A DNA stretch of 44,468 nucleotides from a virus. The DNA is taken from positions 1 to 44,468 of the IMG/VR virus record IMGVR_UViG_3300041409_000371. One strand, given 5' to 3'. This document shows, piece after piece, positions 4,115 to 42,338 of this stretch (positions within the stretch are counted from its first letter, which is position 1; the number at the start of each line of letters is the position of its first letter). Under the pieces are notes generated by a model, which was not told where the DNA came from, did not search any database, and worked only from the letters and a program-made list of their open reading frames with translations. The position numbers and the translations under genes were made by a program.

Positions 4115-5317
4115 ATGGGCTTTCTCTTCAATCCGCAGTCGCTCTCCGGCGATGAAGCTGCACTTAAAGACCTGAACCTAGGCAGTACCTGGGGCACGGG
4201 AGACCTCCTTGGCGCTCGGGTTACGATTCCGCCCGCCGCTCACAAGCTCGATCAGCGGGACGGTACAGGGGCGGCTCCGGTCAAAATCGGCACCAGCGCC
4301 AGCTTCAGCCGTACCGACGCCACGACCCGCGCGGAAGTCAACGAAATGGGGCCGACCGGGACTGACGGCCCAGACGGTGCGACGGCCTTCCGCGCGACGA
4401 TCAAGGGGACCGCCGCCTCTCAGGTCCAGGTCTGCGCCGGGGTCTTCACCGCCTGGCAGACAGGCGAATCGAATGGCGGGGAAGGAAGCGCTGACGCCTG
4501 TCCGGTCTATGGCTTCGCGCGCACGACGGGAAGTGCGGTGGGTCGAGCTATTCCGGCTTACTTTGAGTCCAGCCGCGAGACGGCAACCAGTGGCGGACAG
4601 CAGGCTTTGGAGCTACGAGTCAAAAACAGTTCGGGGTCTTCGGACTCCTACACGCCCGGTTCTCCTTCTAAATCAATGGGAATCTGGCTCTGCGCTTCTT
4701 CTGGCGGGACGGCGGACTCTGCCTGCGCCTTCCAGGTCGGCAAAGCTTTCTCTCGTCAGTTCGACGTAGGCCTGGGCTTCAACGAAGCGTCGATCAAGAC
4801 TTCGACTTATCGCGACGACTCTTCCTCCCTGCGCTCTCTCTTCGTCAATGGCGCTCACGAAAAAGGTGCTTTGGTCGTCAACAAAGCAGCGGGCCAGGTC
4901 ATCTTCGGCCGAGAAGAAGCTCAGCAGGCCACGCCGCTCTTCGAAGTCTTCTCCGAAACAGGACTAGACCCGATCGTCAGTTTCGGCTCCAACACGGGAG
5001 CCAGCCATCGTTCCCAGTTGATCCGCAACTCGACCGGCAACCTTGGGGCCTTCGCTTCGAACGTCTCCAATGGATTCCTCACCGGCACGGCGCAGGGAGA
5101 CACGGGTCTGACCTTTACGGCTGGCAAGATCTTCCACGTTGGCGCGGCGACGAAAACATCTCAGTTCCGCATGTCGGAAACCGGGATCGGCTTCTACTCG
5201 ACCACGCCACAGACCAAGCAGGAAGTCACCGGCTCCAGGGCCACCGGTGCTGCGCTAACGTCTCTCTTGGAAAAACTAGCGACTATCGGCTTGATCACAA
5301 ATGGGAGCACGGCATGA
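4115..5317 (+). CDS. fibre-like or head-appendage protein, 400 aa
   Basis: The protein is rich in Gly, Ser, Thr and Ala with strand-turn periodicity throughout and almost no charged helices, as in phage fibres. The C-terminus TGSRATGAALTSLLEKLATI followed by GLITNGS matches a motif familiar from phage and actinobacterial fibre-like proteins (TGSRGGNAALASLL...GLI). It begins MGFLFNP, echoed by MGFIANP in the gene at 5508. The next gene overlaps by four bases (ATGA). Adsorption or head decoration are both possible. Confidence 0.68.
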   Translation: MGFLFNPQSLSGDEAALKDLNLGSTWGTGDLLGARVTIPPAAHKLDQRDGTGAAPVKIGTSASFSRTDATTRAEVNEMGPTGTDGPDGATAFRATIKGTAASQVQVCAGVFTAWQTGESNGGEGSADACPVYGFARTTGSAVGRAIPAYFESSRETATSGGQQALELRVKNSSGSSDSYTPGSPSKSMGIWLCASSGGTADSACAFQVGKAFSRQFDVGLGFNEASIKTSTYRDDSSSLRSLFVNGAHEKGALVVNKAAGQVIFGREEAQQATPLFEVFSETGLDPIVSFGSNTGASHRSQLIRNSTGNLGAFASNVSNGFLTGTAQGDTGLTFTAGKIFHVGAATKTSQFRMSETGIGFYSTTPQTKQEVTGSRATGAALTSLLEKLATIGLITNGSTA

Positions 5318-5508
5318 ATGCAGCAGCGGTTCTTTCCCTCATCGGCGATCTTTACGCGCAGATCGAAGCGCTCCAGAAGGAAAATGAGGCAACGCTGCAA
5401 ACTGCCGATGAACTCAACGCGAAGGTTCTGGATATGCAGAAGTCGTTCGATCCTCTCGGCGGTCCGGAGGAGGCCGCAGCATTGGCACGCAAGGAAGCCG
5501 AAGGCTGA
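5314..5508 (+). CDS. short coiled-coil protein, 64 aa
   Basis: Overlaps the fibre-like gene by four bases. Residues 5-45 carry heptad-like leucines and alternating charges (LIGDLYAQIEALQKENEATL), indicating a coiled coil. It may trimerise or act as an accessory to the fibre. Overlaps the next gene by one base (TGATG). Confidence 0.58.
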   Translation: MNAAAVLSLIGDLYAQIEALQKENEATLQTADELNAKVLDMQKSFDPLGGPEEAAALARKEAEG

Positions 5509-12575: not shown

Positions 12576-12641
12576 ATGGCTCCGCAGAGGCCTGGATACC
12601 AAAGTCTCCCGTTTGAAGGATTTGGGAAGGGGATCAGGTAG
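12576..12641 (+). pseudogene. cut-off native 5' end of the tail-hub gene (21 codons)
   Basis: ATG lies one base after the adaptor stop, as expected for the original operon spacing. It encodes 21 residues, including YQSLPFEGFGKGI, then stops at TAG 12639. The same peptide, YQSLPFEGFGRGI, begins the intact tail-hub gene 600 bases downstream at 13230. Between them lies an HNH endonuclease gene on the opposite strand. I read this stretch as the original start of the hub gene, stranded by insertion of the endonuclease element. Confidence 0.82.
12597..12635 (+). repeat. native copy of duplicated hub-gene 5' codons
   Basis: Thirteen codons (Y to I) match 13239-13277 at twelve of thirteen amino acids, but eight of those twelve identical residues use different codons. 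The conservation is at the protein level rather than in DNA, which argues against recent simple duplication. Confidence 0.85.
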
Positions 12642-13200
12642 GAACGCTGCCGTCCTTCCAAGTTCTGCCCTTGAGAACGTCCTCAACGCAATACCAAGAG
12701 ACTGCGTATCGAGGGGCAATCCGCTTGGCGAAGCTAGCTCGACTCCCACCGTCCTCCCTGAATTCTCTACGGATGGTCTTAACCATTTCTGCGGTGAGCT
12801 TCGTGTTAGCGCCTCTTCGGACATTCTCGCGTCGAGTGACGACCTCTAGATGATCTGGATTGACGCATAGGCGTTCTCGGCAAAGATGATCAAGTTGGTA
12901 GCCAGCCGGGATCGGCCCCTTGGCTCGTTCAAAGTAAACGCGATGGGCTAGTCGGCCCTTGCCAGCGTCGCGCATCATCGCGTAACCGCTCCAAGCCTTC
13001 GTTCGCCGCCAAATCCAACATCCAGTATCTGTGATCTCGTAAGGGGCGGCGTCAGCCAGCCGGGTAATGGTCCTCCCCTTCATGGCATGGCCGTGACGAT
13101 ACCGCGTAGGTTGTCCCTTCACGGCTCCACGATGCTTAGCGGTGTATTTGGAAATTGGAGTTTTCTCCCCGCAGCCACAAAGGCAATATCCGTCATTCAT
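12634..13200 (-). CDS. HNH homing endonuclease inserted in the tail-hub gene, 188 aa
   Basis: A Cys-rich N-terminus, CLCGCGEKTPISK (residues 6-18), is followed by basic GRTITRL, an RRTKAWSGYAMM strand region, and an HNH core: LDHLCRERLCVNPDHLEVV (residues about 102-120) with the catalytic His in LDH, Cys residues and the Asn-Pro-x-His pair. This is the HNH_3-like class. A basic C-terminal region looks DNA-binding. AGGGA precedes the ATG, and a TAGGCT box lies just upstream. It is antisense to its neighbours and lies between two copies of the hub gene start. It shares its N-terminal domain with the HNH protein at 33230. Confidence 0.88.
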   Translation of the reverse strand: MNDGYCLCGCGEKTPISKYTAKHRGAVKGQPTRYRHGHAMKGRTITRLADAAPYEITDTGCWIWRRTKAWSGYAMMRDAGKGRLAHRVYFERAKGPIPAGYQLDHLCRERLCVNPDHLEVVTRRENVRRGANTKLTAEMVKTIRREFREDGGSRASFAKRIAPRYAVSWYCVEDVLKGRTWKDGSVPT

Positions 13201-13229: not shown

Positions 13230-14804
13230 ATGCCTAGTTATCAAAGCTTGCCTTTCGAAGGGTTTGGGCGCGGAATTAACCTTGTAGATAAGTCAGACAG
13301 CGTTGATCCTGCCGAGGCCGTCGATTGTCTCAATGTCCTCTACTCCCAGCGCGGAGCGATCGAATCGCGCCCCGGCTACAACAATGGCACCGCCTCAGAA
13401 CTTACGAATCGGGCTGAAAGCCTCTCCCCGTACTACACGGCCGCTGGGACTAAGCAGCTTGTGGCTGGGTGCGGAACGCGCCTAGAGGCCCTCAACTCTT
13501 CCTTCGAAGTCGTGGCCAGCGCCACCGGCTTGACCAAAGCGGTCTGGGACTTCGTCAGATTTGGCAAACCCAACGAAGAGGTGGTCTACGCTGGCAACGG
13601 CACTGATAGCCTTCGCAAGTGGAATGGCACCGAATGGACGAACCCAACGATCACCGTCGACGGAGCCGCAGCTAAAACCGGCGTCAAGGCAGCCTCCCTG
13701 GCGACGCTTCCCGCCTATAACCGTCTCGTATGCGGAGGATTCTCAACTAAAACCGGAGGTCCAGGCGGAGCTGAAAGCTCTCCAAGCCATGTGTACTTCT
13801 CAGAAGAAGGCAACCCCGAGGCCTTCGAAAGCACCGCCTATATCCAGTTCACGCCAGGCGACGGGGAGAAAGTCCAAGCGGTCGTAACCTGGCGAGAATT
13901 CGTCTTCGTCTTCAAGGAATCGAAGTTCTTCGTAATCACCGACCAGGCCCGCGATTCCGAAAACAAACCGGAATTCGTCTTCCAAACGATTGAAACCGGC
14001 GTAGGCCTCGCCTCCCCACGAGCCGTCTGCATCCATCAGTCCGGCGTCTACTTCATGAGCCGCGAGGGCGTCTATCGGACCACGGGCTCCGAGCCTGAAC
14101 AGGTCTCCAGTCTCGTGGAACCAATCTGGTCCGGGGATACGAGCCTCTTCTACAAAGGCGGTGTCCTGGCCTTCAGCGCGATCACCAACTGCGCGATGGA
14201 AACCTGGGACGAAAAGATCTATCTCAGCTTCCCCACCGCCAGCGCTAACAACCGCCAGCTTGTCTACAGCCCCGAATACAAATGGTGGTCAGTCCTCAAC
14301 CTCCCCGCCTCTTGCCTGGCCACCTTCCGAGCCGAAAACGAAACCGAGCTTATCTTCGGCTACTCCAGCGGAGAAAAGATGATCGGTCGGCATAAAACCA
14401 GCTACGCGAATGACGATGGGGTAGCCATCAAAGAGCGCTGGAGATCGGGCTGGTTCGATCTTGGCTCAGCCGATATCAAGAAGGTTCGCGCGGCGAAGAT
14501 ATGGGGCACCGGCAAGGTCACGATGGAGATCGACAAAGATTTCGCGGAATCGACCGGTAAACCAGAAGAACTAGATCTCTCTGGAGCCTCCGGCTCCCTC
14601 TTCGCTGGAGCGGGGACGTTCGGCGGAGAAGGCTTCTTTGCGGATTCCTCGGCAGGCTTGGTGGGCAAAGAGCGTCGTGTCGCCCAACGAGGGACGGTCT
14701 TCTCGGTCCTCTTCACCAACGAAACGCTGAACCAAGAGTTCCAGATTCATCGCAACGAGCTTTTGGTGCCGGGACTCTCCGAACCGGCCCGCATAACTGC
14801 GTAG
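13230..14804 (+). CDS. tail hub / tail needle-knob-type protein (P22 gp10-like), 524 aa
   Basis: Repeated strand-rich blades with conserved aromatic, Gly and Asp residues from about residue 60 to 480 fit the beta-propeller of P22 gp10-like tail proteins, which plug the tail tube below gp4. The N-terminal segment DPAEAVDCLNVLYSQRGAIE then RPGY is typical of this family. The start MPSYQSLPFEGFGRG is a recoded copy of the stranded 5' end at 12576. There is no good ribosome site before ATG 13230, so its new translation signal may be weak. Confidence 0.78.
   Translation: MPSYQSLPFEGFGRGINLVDKSDSVDPAEAVDCLNVLYSQRGAIESRPGYNNGTASELTNRAESLSPYYTAAGTKQLVAGCGTRLEALNSSFEVVASATGLTKAVWDFVRFGKPNEEVVYAGNGTDSLRKWNGTEWTNPTITVDGAAAKTGVKAASLATLPAYNRLVCGGFSTKTGGPGGAESSPSHVYFSEEGNPEAFESTAYIQFTPGDGEKVQAVVTWREFVFVFKESKFFVITDQARDSENKPEFVFQTIETGVGLASPRAVCIHQSGVYFMSREGVYRTTGSEPEQVSSLVEPIWSGDTSLFYKGGVLAFSAITNCAMETWDEKIYLSFPTASANNRQLVYSPEYKWWSVLNLPASCLATFRAENETELIFGYSSGEKMIGRHKTSYANDDGVAIKERWRSGWFDLGSADIKKVRAAKIWGTGKVTMEIDKDFAESTGKPEELDLSGASGSLFAGAGTFGGEGFFADSSAGLVGKERRVAQRGTVFSVLFTNETLNQEFQIHRNELLVPGLSEPARITA
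13239..13277 (+). repeat. recoded copy of duplicated hub-gene 5' codons
   Basis: Partner of 12597-12635. It encodes the same peptide except K to R, with eight synonymous codon changes. It is fused in frame to the rest of the hub gene, so this is the copy that is used. Confidence 0.85.
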
Positions 14805-30653: not shown

Positions 30654-30863
30654 ATGCCCGAGCGTGTCCACAAACGGCTATACGTGTCGCTACCCGTTTG
30701 CCCGGAGCCCACTTGCCATCGGATTGGGAAGGTGGCCAAGCACGGCATGGGCAACTCCATGCGCGAGTGGTGCACGGGCGGCGTTGAGAACCCGCACAAG
30801 AAAACGCGGGTCACCCACCGTCTCTTCGTGGAGTCTAGAGCCAAAGTGGCCGTGAATGGCTGA
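30654..30863 (+). CDS. small putative zinc-binding protein with replaced 3' end, 69 aa
   Basis: Contains CPEPTC (residues 15-20) and a later single Cys and His residues, as in zinc-binding mini-proteins of actinophages. It ends RLFVESRAKVAVNG. The stretch RLFVESRAKV recurs at the end of the HNH protein next door (31408-31437) with nine of ten codons different. I infer that the original gene ended at 31446 and that the HNH element inserted near codon 55, bringing this recoded end. Confidence 0.68.
   Translation: MPERVHKRLYVSLPVCPEPTCHRIGKVAKHGMGNSMREWCTGGVENPHKKTRVTHRLFVESRAKVAVNG
30819..30848 (+). repeat. recoded copy of duplicated gene end (RLFVESRAKV)
   Basis: Ten codons with the same amino acids as 31408-31437, nine of ten codons synonymous but different; only GAG is shared. 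This copy completes the upstream small gene. Confidence 0.88.
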
Positions 30864-31446
30864 GAAGACCTGTAACCGCTGCAACGTGGCGAAGCCCTTA
30901 GCAAACTTCTACCCCCACAAACAAACGCGTGATGGCTATCTGAATCAGTGCAAGGAATGCACTAAACGAGCCAACCAAGAGAACTACCTTCGCGAAAAAG
31001 AGCGAGCTAAGGAACGAGCTAGTACTTGGTACCGCGAGAATAAATCTCGTGCCTTGGAACTCGCGGAGGAGTGGAAGAAGGCAAACCCCGAGCGGGTGGC
31101 GCAAACGCGAGAGCGCTATAGCCCGCGTCGGGCTGAACTGACCAAAGAATATCGAGCCAAAAATCCTGAGCGATTTGCCGAGGCGCAGCGACGACATGCG
31201 AAGCGCCATCCCGAGAAGGCTCGCGCCCGCAGCACGGTAACGCGCGCGGTCCACGAAGGCCGGTTGTCAAAGCCCAGGCATTGCGAAGATTGCAAAAAGG
31301 CCGTGGCTAATCCGGTCGATCTCCACGGCCACCACGAGGACTACGGCAAGCCCTTAGATATTGAATGGCTATGTCGAGGGTGCCACAACCAGCGACACTC
31401 CTCCAAGAGGCTATTTGTCGAGAGTCGGGCGAAGGTCAAGGCGTGA
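30856..31446 (+). CDS. HNH homing endonuclease inserted at a gene 3' end, 196 aa
   Basis: N-terminal zinc finger (CNRC...CKEC, residues 6-35), long basic helical linker (about 40-130) and C-terminal HNH: HCEDC, then LHGHHEDYGKPLDIEWLCRG and CHNQRH (about 140-183) with the HHxD catalytic pair. The last 12 residues, RLFVESRAKVKA, are not part of the endonuclease; they are the displaced native end of the upstream gene, read in frame. The stop still overlaps the next start (GTGA), the native arrangement. Confidence 0.87.
   Translation: MAEKTCNRCNVAKPLANFYPHKQTRDGYLNQCKECTKRANQENYLREKERAKERASTWYRENKSRALELAEEWKKANPERVAQTRERYSPRRAELTKEYRAKNPERFAEAQRRHAKRHPEKARARSTVTRAVHEGRLSKPRHCEDCKKAVANPVDLHGHHEDYGKPLDIEWLCRGCHNQRHSSKRLFVESRAKVKA
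31408..31437 (+). repeat. native copy of duplicated gene end (RLFVESRAKV)
   Basis: Partner of 30819-30848. It keeps the GTGA overlap with the following gene at 31443, so it is likely the ancestral 3' end, now fused in frame to the HNH gene. Confidence 0.85.
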
Positions 31447-31589
31447 GGGACTACGTTTTTCATCATCTCTGCTTGCGTTGTCGGACGCACTGGTGCCTGC
31501 TTGACCATGCGGTCTGCCCGTCCTGCGGAACCTGGGCGCATAGCCGAGGACCTGTCTTCTCCTTCGAGGAAGTCAAAGCAGATGCCTGA
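31443..31589 (+). CDS. zinc-ribbon mini-protein, 48 aa
   Basis: GTG start overlapping the HNH stop. CLRC (residues 10-13) and CPSC (25-28) form a classic two-knuckle zinc ribbon with flanking His. Overlaps the next gene by eight bases. Confidence 0.6.
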   Translation: MRDYVFHHLCLRCRTHWCLLDHAVCPSCGTWAHSRGPVFSFEEVKADA

Positions 31590-31788
31590 TCTCAATGCCA
31601 AGCGGCAGGAATCCTTTGACGAAGGCTGGTACGCGCCTATTCGGCGTGCCGAGGAAGCTAAGACCTGGAAAGACTTGGGCTACCGGGCCTTTCAGAAGCA
31701 GCTTGCCTCAAAAGAAAGACCGCCCCGAAGGACGGCCTCTCAAAAGTCGACAACGACCCTGACACGGAAGGGTCAACGCGAAGCGTAG
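31582..31788 (+). CDS. hypothetical basic protein, 68 aa
   Basis: MPDLNAKRQESFDEGWYAPI... with a basic, Thr/Lys-rich C-terminus. A CCGCCC-CGAA-GGACGG hairpin lies within its coding region near 31722. No family recognised. Confidence 0.5.
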   Translation: MPDLNAKRQESFDEGWYAPIRRAEEAKTWKDLGYRAFQKQLASKERPPRRTASQKSTTTLTRKGQREA

Positions 31789-32524: not shown

Positions 32525-32727
32525 AGCTCGAAATCAGAACACTGCGCTCGGAATACTTTGAGATTCGGCCTAAGCATTGGTGGAGCCAGAAGGATCGCAA
32601 GGCTGCCCGGCTGAGCCTGAAGGTGCTTGAGAGCCAACGCGAGGAGGTCTTCAAGGAGACCAGTAAGCGGCTAGCTAGAGAGCTGTTCTTTGGCGAGAGC
32701 TATGTCCGGAAGGATTGGAAAGCTTGA
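32521..32727 (+). CDS. hypothetical basic protein, 68 aa
   Basis: TTG start in a TTGA overlap with the upstream stop. Basic, aromatic and helical (PKHWWSQKDRKAARLSLKVL). TTGA overlap downstream as well. Unknown. Confidence 0.52.
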   Translation: MKLEIRTLRSEYFEIRPKHWWSQKDRKAARLSLKVLESQREEVFKETSKRLARELFFGESYVRKDWKA

Positions 32728-33233
32728 GTCGCCGCCCTCTGCTCGGCGTCGTTTCACCGCAGACCGGAGAGGTCGTCTCGTGCCCTCAGTGTCAGCATCG
32801 CGAGGACGCCCTGCAAGGGCTGGAGAGGGACTTGCGGGTTAAGAACGCGAAGATCAAAGAATTGGAGCGCGACATTGAGACCGACGCTCGCAGGGATCCA
32901 GTGTGGCATGAGGCGGAATGTCTTTGGACGTGGTGGGCCTTGTCTTGTGGCCACGAAGGCTGCAAGTTCGAGGCCGAGGAGTTGTATCTAGCCAAGCCGC
33001 ACTTGAAACGAGAGGGGCTGATAGGGTGCCTCAAGGCGGTAGCAGGCGCAGCCTTTGACCCCTACGTGGGGGAACTGAAAAATGGGAATGCGGACCGCAA
33101 GGATGACTTCGAGCTTATTTTCCGGAACAAGGCCAAGTTCGAGAGTTTTGTGAAGCGCGCACCCGGAGGAGAGGGGGACGAGATCACATGGAGGCGGTTC
33201 CTAGCCCAGCGGATCGGATCGAGCTTCAGGTGA
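32724..33233 (+). CDS. CxxC plus coiled-coil protein, 169 aa
   Basis: I choose TTG 32724 (TTGA overlap) over TTG 32715. CPQC at residues about 20-23 is followed by a coiled coil (LQGLERDLRVKNAKIKELER). The C-terminal 100 residues are mixed helical with HEGCKFEAEE. No family recognised. GTGA overlap with the following HNH gene. Confidence 0.55.
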   Translation: MSRRPLLGVVSPQTGEVVSCPQCQHREDALQGLERDLRVKNAKIKELERDIETDARRDPVWHEAECLWTWWALSCGHEGCKFEAEELYLAKPHLKREGLIGCLKAVAGAAFDPYVGELKNGNADRKDDFELIFRNKAKFESFVKRAPGGEGDEITWRRFLAQRIGSSFR

Positions 33234-33709
33234 AGCTTTGCGAGTGCGGTTGCACGTCTCCCGCACCCATCGCGAAGATGACGAATCGAAAGTTAGGTCA
33301 TGTTCGTGGTCAACCTGTGCGCTTTGTAAGAGGCCATGCGGCTAGGGTTAACCCGCGCAAGCCTCAAGGATTTGGTCTGTTGCAAGGGAGAGAAGGTCGG
33401 TGGGCGATCTGGTGCTGCGATGGCTCCCGTGTCTATTTTTCTAGAGCGGTAATGGAAGCAGAGTTACGACGGCCATTGCGCGGTGACGAGGAGGTTCATC
33501 ACATCAACCGGAACCCAACGGATGATCGTTGCGAGAACCTAGAAGTCCTGAGTCACCGGGAGCACGCTCAGCGCCATCGGCCCTCGCATTGCAGGCGCGG
33601 CCACCCACTAAGTGGGGAGAACCTCTATACGAGTCCTGATGGGCGCAATCAATGTCGCATTTGCGCTCGAATGCGCAATCGCAAACGTGCCAGGACCGTG
33701 GTGGCTTGA
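33230..33709 (+). CDS. HNH endonuclease, 159 aa
   Basis: GTG in a GTGA overlap with the previous stop. The N-terminus CECGCTSPAPIAK...GQPVRFVRGHA resembles that of the HNH protein at 12634 (CLCGCGEKTPISK...GQPTRYRHGHA). The HNH core VHHINRNPTDDRCENLEVLS (residues about 88-108) carries HH, Asn and Asn-Leu. A C-terminal zinc motif (HCRRGHP...CRIC) completes it. Unlike the other two HNH genes, it lies between genes rather than inside one. TTGA overlap with the next gene. Confidence 0.85.
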   Translation: MKLCECGCTSPAPIAKMTNRKLGHVRGQPVRFVRGHAARVNPRKPQGFGLLQGREGRWAIWCCDGSRVYFSRAVMEAELRRPLRGDEEVHHINRNPTDDRCENLEVLSHREHAQRHRPSHCRRGHPLSGENLYTSPDGRNQCRICARMRNRKRARTVVA

Positions 33710-33906
33710 CTCTCTCCCTCACCCGCCAGCAACGCAAAGCTCTCGTTTGCCCGCAGGGCCACGAGACGCGAGAGCTAACCCCCCAGCGTCAGCAGTTCTT
33801 TGGCCCCGGCTGGGTCTATTGCGATAGATGCGAGGTACGCTCCGCGAATTGCAAGCGTTCGTACAAAGGCATGTATTACCAGCGCCGTCTTTTGGAGTCG
33901 TCGTGA
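33706..33906 (+). CDS. zinc-finger mini-protein sharing its start with the next gene, 66 aa
   Basis: Starts TLSLTRQQRKALVCPQGHE; the next gene starts TLALTRAQRKALF. After the shared start comes a CPQGHE...CDRCE zinc pair and a basic tail. It may be a third duplicated gene end with a small inserted segment, or a paralogue. Confidence 0.55.
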   Translation: MTLSLTRQQRKALVCPQGHETRELTPQRQQFFGPGWVYCDRCEVRSANCKRSYKGMYYQRRLLESS

Positions 33907-34481
33907 CGTTGGCGTTGACACGCGCGCAGCGCAAAGCTCTGTTTGCGGGAGAACATCCAAGGATCACGGTTCCGGAGTCCTGGGAGTGGATTGGGAACCT
34001 TGAGCACAGACTTTCAACCAAAGTCTCGATTAGCATCGTCGGCGTTGAAACTCAGGACGACGAACGAGTCTTGCACTACGTCCTTCAGGACTTCCGCCCC
34101 CGCCTCCTACGTGCTAGGACTCGCAGTGCTGGCTACGAAGAGGGCCTGAGGGACGATCTCGTGGGCGCTGAGCTTGTCAAAGCCTCTGAGGCGTCTGGGT
34201 ACACCCACAGCCCTGGAGCAGCCCTTCGAGGCTCTGGGGAGGAAGTCTCAAGGGCAGAGCAGGAACGCTTCAAGAAACAGAGCAGTGATCCGGCGCTCCA
34301 GGAGTTGAGAGGCCATCGCGCAGATGTCAAAGCAACCTTGGACCGCATTCGAGATAACCCGCTCTTGCATGGCCGTGGTACCTTTGGATCGGAACTTCGG
34401 TTTGCCGAGAGAAAGATCGAGAAGGTCTTGAGCAAGCTGGAATCTAGGATCAACGAGACGGCGAGGAGATCAGCAGCATGA
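33903..34481 (+). CDS. hypothetical early protein, 192 aa
   Basis: GTG in a GTGA overlap. Residues 1-75 are beta-rich (VSISIVGVETQDDERVLHYV); the rest is helical (EVSRAEQERFKKQSSDPALQ; FAERKIEKVLSKLESRINET). No family recognised. Confidence 0.6.
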   Translation: MTLALTRAQRKALFAGEHPRITVPESWEWIGNLEHRLSTKVSISIVGVETQDDERVLHYVLQDFRPRLLRARTRSAGYEEGLRDDLVGAELVKASEASGYTHSPGAALRGSGEEVSRAEQERFKKQSSDPALQELRGHRADVKATLDRIRDNPLLHGRGTFGSELRFAERKIEKVLSKLESRINETARRSAA

Positions 34482-41899: not shown

Positions 41900-42338
41900 G
41901 CCCCAATCGGGTCCGTACCGCGTTCCCAAGCAGCCTTCCTTCTTTCAGCCGATTCGAGAGCGCGCCGCATCCCCCCTTCAGCAAACGGGCCGGGACGAGG
42001 GCAACATCAAGCCCGACCTGGGGACTGAATTCAAGGAAGGCGCGAAACGCCAACACGCCCGCAAGGTCCGCAAGCATAGAGAACGCGAACGGAGCTATTA
42101 CAACTACGATCCGAACGCTGGTGTGAGAACCGATAACGGATATAAGACTCTCGCTCGGTCGTCAGGCTATGCATCACCCCTTCAGCAAACGGGCCGAGAC
42201 GAGGGGAGCTTGAAGCCGAGCGTTGGCAGGGAATTCCGCGAAGGGGCGCGCCGCAACAAACGGCGTAAACAGCAGCTCCACCTTACTGAGAAGGCCGCTG
42301 CGCTCTACCACATCGCACATGGACTTCAGAGCACCTGA
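41853..42338 (+). CDS. repeat-containing basic protein, 161 aa
   Basis: Two copies of a 28-residue unit (residues 39-66 and 107-134), each ASPLQQTGRDEG... then FKEGAKR/FREGARR. Basic and hydrophilic throughout. It may bind DNA or pack into the virion; it begins the genes that lead to the virion lysin. Confidence 0.6.
   Translation: MNQRRQQILKSLQGTKPQSGPYRVPKQPSFFQPIRERAASPLQQTGRDEGNIKPDLGTEFKEGAKRQHARKVRKHRERERSYYNYDPNAGVRTDNGYKTLARSSGYASPLQQTGRDEGSLKPSVGREFREGARRNKRRKQQLHLTEKAAALYHIAHGLQST
41967..42050 (+). repeat. 84-bp coding repeat, copy 1
   Basis: Unit encoding ASPLQQTGRDEG...; partner at 42171-42254. The first 30 bases are nearly identical; the rest has diverged. Confidence 0.75.
42171..42254 (+). 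repeat. 84-bp coding repeat, copy 2
   Basis: Partner of 41967-42050 within the same gene. Confidence 0.75.

Follow-up and report, generated by a model that had tools for sequence, protein, structure and literature searches.

The locus at positions 30,654 to 31,446 of the window (the whole 44,468-nucleotide stretch analyzed here, IMG/VR record IMGVR_UViG_3300041409_000371) is best described as a mobile HNH element of about 590 bp, which carries a replacement gene end, restores with it the small gene into which it has inserted, and uses the displaced end of that gene as its own C-terminus; a probability of roughly 0.85 is assigned to this reading. What keeps the host gene whole is an alternative 3′ end, spelled almost completely differently, in front of the HNH gene (HNH2), and the native-like end forms the last 12 residues of the HNH2 protein. 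As judged from sequence comparison, the build is found again in unrelated phages, at 3′ as well as 5′ gene ends and with the HNH gene in either orientation. The coordinates of the features are collected in Table 1.

The duplication of the gene end is readily apparent from the translations. The peptide RLFVESRAKV is encoded at 30819-30848, close to the end of the small gene (MPERVHKR...THRLFVESRAKVAVNG, with the C-terminal end RLFVESRAKVAVNG), and again at 31408-31437, close to the end of the HNH2 gene (...HSSKRLFVESRAKVKA). All ten residues agree, while nine of the ten codons differ: the upstream copy reads CGT CTC TTC GTG GAG TCT AGA GCC AAA GTG and the downstream copy AGG CTA TTT GTC GAG AGT CGG GCG AAG GTC, GAG being the sole codon common to both. 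The 3′ end of the small gene is spelled TCTAGAGCCAAAGTGGCC...TGA. The duplication with identical residues and differing codons is exact as first described, and when the window was scanned without bias for peptide repeats lying close together on one strand, this pair was recovered together with the pair at HNH1. An exact ten-residue match between the ends of neighbouring genes is far more than chance would produce. At full synonymous saturation under the codon usage of the window, 3.4 ± 1.4 identical codons would be expected, against the one in ten that is seen. The initial annotation correctly recognized the small gene and the duplication of its end, but not its length, given as 68 codons; there are 69 plus the stop. 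The upstream copy is full length and ends in AVNG in place of KADA. Searches of Pfam, PHROG and NCBIfam with the small host gene gave no match, and neither did a search of INPHARED with the 69-aa protein. RNA folding of the region shows nothing unusual (z = -1.3).

Relatives of the small gene are present in four viral contigs, with protein identities of 86% (L002), about 61-62% (L003), 60% (L018) and 58% (L004). The most conserved stretch of the protein is RLFVESRA, and in all four relatives the 3′ end is uninterrupted, in the form RLFVESRA[KE]VK, as expected if the element inserted near the 3′ end of the gene. The DNA stretch AGYCGGGCGRAGGTCAAGG is common to the four relatives and the HNH2 tail, and the upstream copy of the window (TCTAGAGCCAAAGTG) departs from it; the DNA of the downstream copy is common to L002, L003 and L004 and, with small changes, is found in L018. 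Since AGYCGGGCGRAGGTCAAGG is kept only in the downstream copy, the comparison identifies this copy as native-like, in line with the original proposal, and the upstream copy as a foreign or recoded replacement. It is difficult to place the left boundary of the replacement, because the RLFVE codons of both copies are found in different relatives: the upstream copy still agrees with L002 at CTCTTCGTGGAG, with the codons CTC TTC GTG GAG directly before 30834 matching L002, and the downstream copy matches L004 at TTTGTCGAG. Within 30834-30863, codon identity to L002 drops from about two thirds to 1 of 6 conserved residues. The foreign stretch surely covers this interval and may start as early as about 30798. 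The nucleotide-level conservation of AGYCGGGCGRAGGTCAAGG in L002, L003, L004 and L018, most of whose proteins are only about 60% identical, is a separate observation; the stretch is probably in part the ribosome-binding site of the next gene and is perhaps the nuclease target.

The HNH2 protein (P0002) matches the endonuclease family phrog_2340 over residues 1-185 of its 196 (E = 1e-32). All 17 columns that are invariant among 28 homologues are present, mostly zinc or catalytic residues, and both the zinc cysteines and the HH.DY..P....W.C...H...H residues are retained. The predicted structure has a core with pLDDT above 90 and is confident to about residue 180, the last two blocks falling to 66 and 54; a fold search against solved structures returned a weak match to the beta-beta-alpha-metal nuclease Hpy99I (E = 0.12). 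The tail RLFVESRAKVKA corresponds to residues 185-196, the last 12, and starts where the phrog_2340 profile ends, which marks it as an addition to the family. A tail of this type occurs in none of the other 342 HNH ORFs among the 343 examined. The case that the initial annotation itself had named as decisive against it, namely RLFVESRAKV as a normal tail of free HNH proteins, was therefore not encountered, and the view that the native end now serves as the C-terminus of HNH2 is borne out. A scan of viral contigs with the HNH2 protein alone found no relative.

With its motif and zinc cysteines intact, and with uninterrupted alleles in L002, L003 (at the 3′ end), L004 and L018, HNH2 is a putative phage HNH homing endonuclease, which would be predicted to cut the uninterrupted allele and to be inherited preferentially. 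Three other classes of insertion were considered and rejected. For an intron-encoded endonuclease of group I, the Rfam search of the window gave no match, which indicates that no known intron family is present at the locus, and the host gene has its own complete end. An intein is excluded by the stop codon of the host gene; HNH2, in addition, has its own start in a frame other than that of the host. As for gene-end insertion of the integrase type (e14 in icd), the insert consists of the HNH gene and the replacement end only, without a site-specific integrase.

The downstream side of the locus differs from the initial annotation. The HNH2 stop shares bases with the GTG at which the next ORF starts (31443), and this GTGA overlap had been taken as the mark of the native end, HNH2 having borrowed the native stop. 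Neither point can be maintained: in the relatives the native small gene instead ends in KVKADA or KVKAHA, overlapping ATGCCTGA-type starts, and in the window this KVKADA-type junction now lies at about 31572-31589, beyond HNH2 and at the end of the small ORF 31443-31589, so that the native stop is not the one that HNH2 uses. The junction DNA is GTCAAAGCAGATGCCTGA in the window ORF and GTCAAGGCAGATGCCTGA in L003. The small ORF is apparently an insertion in itself. At the stop/start junction of the host gene, two small non-HNH ORFs that are unrelated to each other are inserted, one in the window (31443-31589) and one in L018 (about 5190-5400); both end in VKADA with the common DNA GTCAARGCAGATGCC, which points to a hot spot for gene insertion.

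Table 1. Features of the three HNH loci of the window, in order of position, followed by further loci in other contigs.
Feature	Position	Strand	Remarks
HNH1 relic, displaced native start of the structural gene	12576..12641	+	MAPQRPGYQSLPFEGFGKGIR, then stop
HNH1, HNH_3-type endonuclease	12634..13200	-	antisense to host; PF13392, E = 1e-16; phrog_826
HNH1 host gene, virion structural protein	13230..14804	+	replacement start MPSYQSLPFEGFGRGI
Small host gene	30654..30863	+	69 aa; Cys/His-rich; intact via replacement end
Replacement 3′ end, SRAKVAVNG, then stop	30834..30863	+	surely foreign part; left boundary uncertain, about 30798-30833
HNH2, zinc-finger/HNH endonuclease	30856..31446	+	196 aa; ATG overlaps host stop (AATGGCTGA)
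Displaced native-like host 3′ end	31408..31446	+	RLFVESRAKVKA, then stop; now C-terminal tail of HNH2
Small ORF	31443..31589	+	48 aa; ends EEVKADA; holds original host-gene stop/start junction
Next gene (MPDLNAK...)	31582..31788	+	start overlaps original host stop; same ATGCCTGA overlap in L003
HNH3 host gene	32724..33233	+	last 22 codons replaced (about 33168-33233)
HNH3 endonuclease	33230..33709	+	at 3′ end of same host gene as in G006; relic lost
L200			viral HNH locus; 3′ case; HNH antisense
L167			viral HNH locus; 5′ case; HNH antisense
L195			viral HNH locus; 5′ case; HNH antisense; 72 codons duplicated
L332/L333			viral HNH loci; 3′ case; cytosine-methylase-like end
L252, L255, G007			viral HNH loci; 5′ cases; HNH starting on native start
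L430, Pseudonocardia pini			bacterial genome contig; 5′ case; HNH antisense; 40 codons
L394			bacterial genome contig; 5′ case; HNH sense

The same build is seen at the other two HNH genes of the window. At HNH1, the replacement start of the host gene and the relic have 5 of 13 conserved codons identical. Seventeen relatives of this host gene start without this duplication, one of them, L034, carrying instead a degenerate HNH remnant in front of it. The mirror image that had been proposed at 12634, with an HNH gene of another family (phrog_826 vs phrog_2340), is supported, and relatives lack the insertion there. A degenerate HNH remnant is found in G012 (34053-34373), between a gene and the structural gene that hosts HNH1 in the window; it begins with an apparent native start (VSV), and the structural gene restarts at TTG TCC GTG, as in a decayed 5′ case. 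At HNH3, codon identity of the host gene to G004 is high until the last 22 codons, where both codons and residues abruptly diverge.

Comparison of gene ends located the same arrangement in 13 curated HNH loci, which cover 3′ and 5′ ends, sense and antisense HNH genes and several HNH subfamilies. The cleanest proof of the build is provided by G006, where an HNH gene lies at the 3′ end of the gene that hosts HNH3 in the window and the uninterrupted homologue is available from G005. The stretch of the G006 host gene that leads up to GACGACTTC has the same codons as G005; this is followed by a 3′ end in another spelling, which has its own stop (AATGGCTAA, overlapping with the start of the HNH gene), by the HNH gene, and by a relic whose beginning is nucleotide-identical to the native G005 end. 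The AATGGCTAA overlap parallels that of AATGGCTGA in the window. An independent and exact parallel of the HNH2 arrangement is L388, a 3′ case from a Gemmatimonadetes MAG and, like L430 and L394, drawn from bacterial genome contigs: the HNH gene continues in frame into RFESVAACRRMVPQPRRATVRK, and the host gene ends in RFETVAACRRMVPVARRATVK. The small gene that is interrupted at its 3′ end in the window has a related HNH gene at its 5′ end in L003. This HNH protein opens with MAERLHK, which is how the small gene natively starts, and the small gene itself restarts at a GTG. The two copies in L255 have none of seven codons identical (0/7), and for the weaker cases L255, G007 and L394 the support comes from gene architecture as much as from the score.

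Several candidates were discarded, L381 because it consists of two adjacent paralogues, and L085, L309, L312, L313 and L315 because they represent low-complexity frames or zinc-finger repeats. A somewhat different situation is observed in L344, L329 and L325 (and L190), where the HNH gene lies inside a DNA-methylase-like gene and the motif LKPA.EPI..ARKP is duplicated on both sides. The methylase frame is open throughout the HNH gene, in a frame different from that of HNH; synonymous shuffles leave it open in 7% (L344), 0.08% (L329) and 10% (L325) of trials, and dual coding at these loci may be selected.

To evaluate the enrichment of paired ends, 290 unique HNH loci were used, and the score between both flanks of a locus was set against scores obtained after permuting flanks across the loci. 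A first flank scan, based on gapped alignments, was swamped by low-complexity frames and HNH-HNH matches and was replaced by ungapped paired-versus-permuted tests. At a score of at least 48, paired flank copies are present at 14 of the 290 loci, compared with 1.8 expected from permuted partners. Upon inspection, five of the 14 prove spurious (low-complexity frames or HNH zinc-finger motifs), leaving about nine real ones. Some of the strongest permuted scores derive from true homologues, as similar genes adjoin HNH genes in different phages. The enrichment of paired ends around HNH genes is real, and the end-replaced state is a minority one, since the arrangement is absent from the 14 cultured-phage loci sampled (15 HNH genes, T7 included).

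Pooled over all pairs, codon identity at conserved residues amounts to 76 of 214, compared with 88.1 expected for random synonymous choice; tested on these pooled pairs, avoidance of shared codons beyond saturation is not significant (z = -1.86). The replacement ends are therefore at full synonymous saturation, and avoidance is at most hinted at. Composition was analyzed for the 13 loci having both copies. The mean GC3 is 0.66 for native copies, 0.56 for replacements, 0.59 for HNH genes and 0.68 for the contigs, and it is lower in the replacement than in the native copy in 11 of 13 pairs (Wilcoxon p = 0.010). Replacements thus resemble HNH genes in average GC3, which supports their travelling together. 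Locus by locus, the size of the GC3 shift does not track the difference between HNH gene and contig (Spearman -0.21), and a drift to rarer codons driven by recoding would look similar.

The following course of events is proposed for such elements. The HNH nuclease would cut the uninterrupted allele of a conserved gene in co-infecting phages, and repair of the break would copy the HNH element together with the replacement end. Insertion would be cheap, because the coding sequence of the host gene is kept. The occupied allele would in turn escape renewed cutting, and recombination between the copies would not easily remove the element, as the replacement no longer matches the native DNA. In the 5′ mirror form, an HNH gene in sense orientation takes over the start codon and initial residues of the native gene, which then restarts on a start brought by the element.

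Where the altered spelling comes from is a narrower matter. The chances are about even that the replacement is a long-diverged homologue which homing and co-conversion transferred from another phage along with the HNH gene, its spelling unselected; this concerns only the origin of the spelling and is compatible with the element model. Such a donor would explain a pooled codon identity at the random synonymous level, the HNH-like composition of the replacements, and the fact that several of them differ also in amino acids, and the fungal mitochondrial cases discussed below have been read as horizontal transfer (PMC3630166). Nevertheless, no donor phage with such a replacement end was found, AGYCGGGCGRAGGTCAAGG is wholly given up in the window replacement despite being common to four relatives of 58-86% identity, and the codon identities of 1/10 in the window and 0/7 in L255 lie below the random expectation. 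Active recoding, in which selected synonymous changes destroy the endonuclease site and block recombination, as a natural counterpart of home-and-rescue, appears rather unlikely. It would be consistent with the retention of residues while synonymous sites are saturated, with the insertion lying where the small host protein is most conserved, and with the overall z value, which leans the same way; the deficit in codon identity, however, falls short of significance, with differences in GC3 as a confounder, and a recognition site would already be split by the insertion alone. The word recoded, if taken in the sense of selected to differ, is consequently too strong: codon identity is at the level of random choice, and a diverged donor homologue explains it equally well. 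The more general picture of a widespread natural home-and-rescue system in phages, made up of compact HNH elements whose ends are selected to respell nearly every codon with the protein retained, giving immunity and a recombination block, and whose nuclease takes up the displaced native start or end, is offered only tentatively.

Explanations that dispense with the endonuclease fare considerably worse. Ordinary reshuffling of small genes at stop/start junctions, the repeated peptide being a boundary remnant, is improbable. Other small ORFs do sit at the junction in L018 and in the window, ending in KVKADA/VKADA with the DNA GTCAARGCAGATGCC, but boundary repeats are DNA repeats, whereas the two ends at this locus agree in protein and differ in DNA; moreover, HNH genes show an excess of the pattern in their surroundings, and it reappears in genes and phages that are not related. 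Still more improbable, to the point of being nearly negligible, is a partial duplication of the gene end in place, later diverged and unrelated to the HNH gene. Although both copies lie within 0.6 kb, the relic is close in DNA to the uninterrupted homologue (G006/G005), which places the divergence on the replacement side, and the copies flank the HNH gene in every curated case.

For a mobile HNH element with a replacement gene end, the nearest precedent is that of fungal mitochondrial endonuclease ORFs (mORFs), which replace C-termini in Allomyces atp6 and in Glomus atp6, atp9, cox2 and nad3; there, the native ends match the DNA of a close relative at 91-98% and the inserted ends at only 64-81% (PMC3630166). 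In both systems an endonuclease ORF lies near the 3′ end of a gene, an in-frame replacement C-terminus is supplied, and the native C-terminus is displaced downstream. The window element accordingly shares with end-replacing ORFs the in-frame, element-borne terminus and the displaced native one, but not the mitochondrial LAGLIDADG or GIY-YIG nuclease. The fungal ORFs belong to these two families, and their described cases are 3′ only, whereas the genes considered here are phage HNH genes, for which 5′ and antisense arrangements occur too, and whose product can take the displaced end as its own terminus. The relation was therefore rated as the same logic in another nuclease family and genetic system, with extra 5′ and antisense forms.

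The T4 Mob proteins and the Skunavirus HNH endonucleases are likewise encoded by genes packed against phage genes, with a start overlapping the upstream stop, but insert between genes or split them, as mobE does with nrdA (PMC2988022, PMC12724721). A term search of the T4 mobile-element review (PMC2988022) and the Skunavirus HNH survey (PMC12724721) revealed no duplicated or replaced gene end. In E. coli, e14 is inserted after codon 362 of icd and supplies an alternative 3′ end (165 bp, with 12 nucleotide differences and 2 amino acid changes), the native end (icdC) being located on the far side, as with HNH2 (PMC11148124). Unlike HNH2, e14 is a cryptic prophage with its own putative integrase rather than a single nuclease gene, and its two icd ends are still about 93% identical in DNA, in contrast to the respelled copies of the window (PMC11148124). 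Literature searches, mainly of openly available papers, yielded no phage HNH precedent for end replacement, and no earlier description of the 5′ mirror and antisense forms was found.

Synthetic home-and-rescue and cleave-and-rescue drives resemble the phage elements in combining a nuclease directed at a conserved gene with a recoded rescue copy that moves along with it. The drives are engineered, whereas in the phage elements the gene end alone is supplied and selection for recoding is hypothetical.

These results suggest a route by which homing endonuclease genes lacking an intron could enter conserved, probably essential phage genes, namely by carrying the piece that they break; invasion would then not be confined to the gaps between genes. 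What has been described for a few mitochondrial genes of fungi would thereby be extended to phage HNH elements. The codon-swapped pairs represent ready-made substrates for testing immunity to a selfish nuclease by synonymous spelling, an issue built into the design of synthetic gene drives. The build also accounts for puzzling peptide duplications in phage genomes and for gene ends that are wrongly annotated there.

Other repeats are present elsewhere in the window. Two adjacent small genes share a common start, LTRQQRKAL/LTRAQRKAL, at 33718-33744 and 33915-33941; the gene pair is also found in G001, and one copy in G006. A tandem peptide repeat, ASPLQQTGRDEG, is encoded at 41964-42005 and 42168-42209, the two copies being 83% identical in DNA and 204 bases apart.
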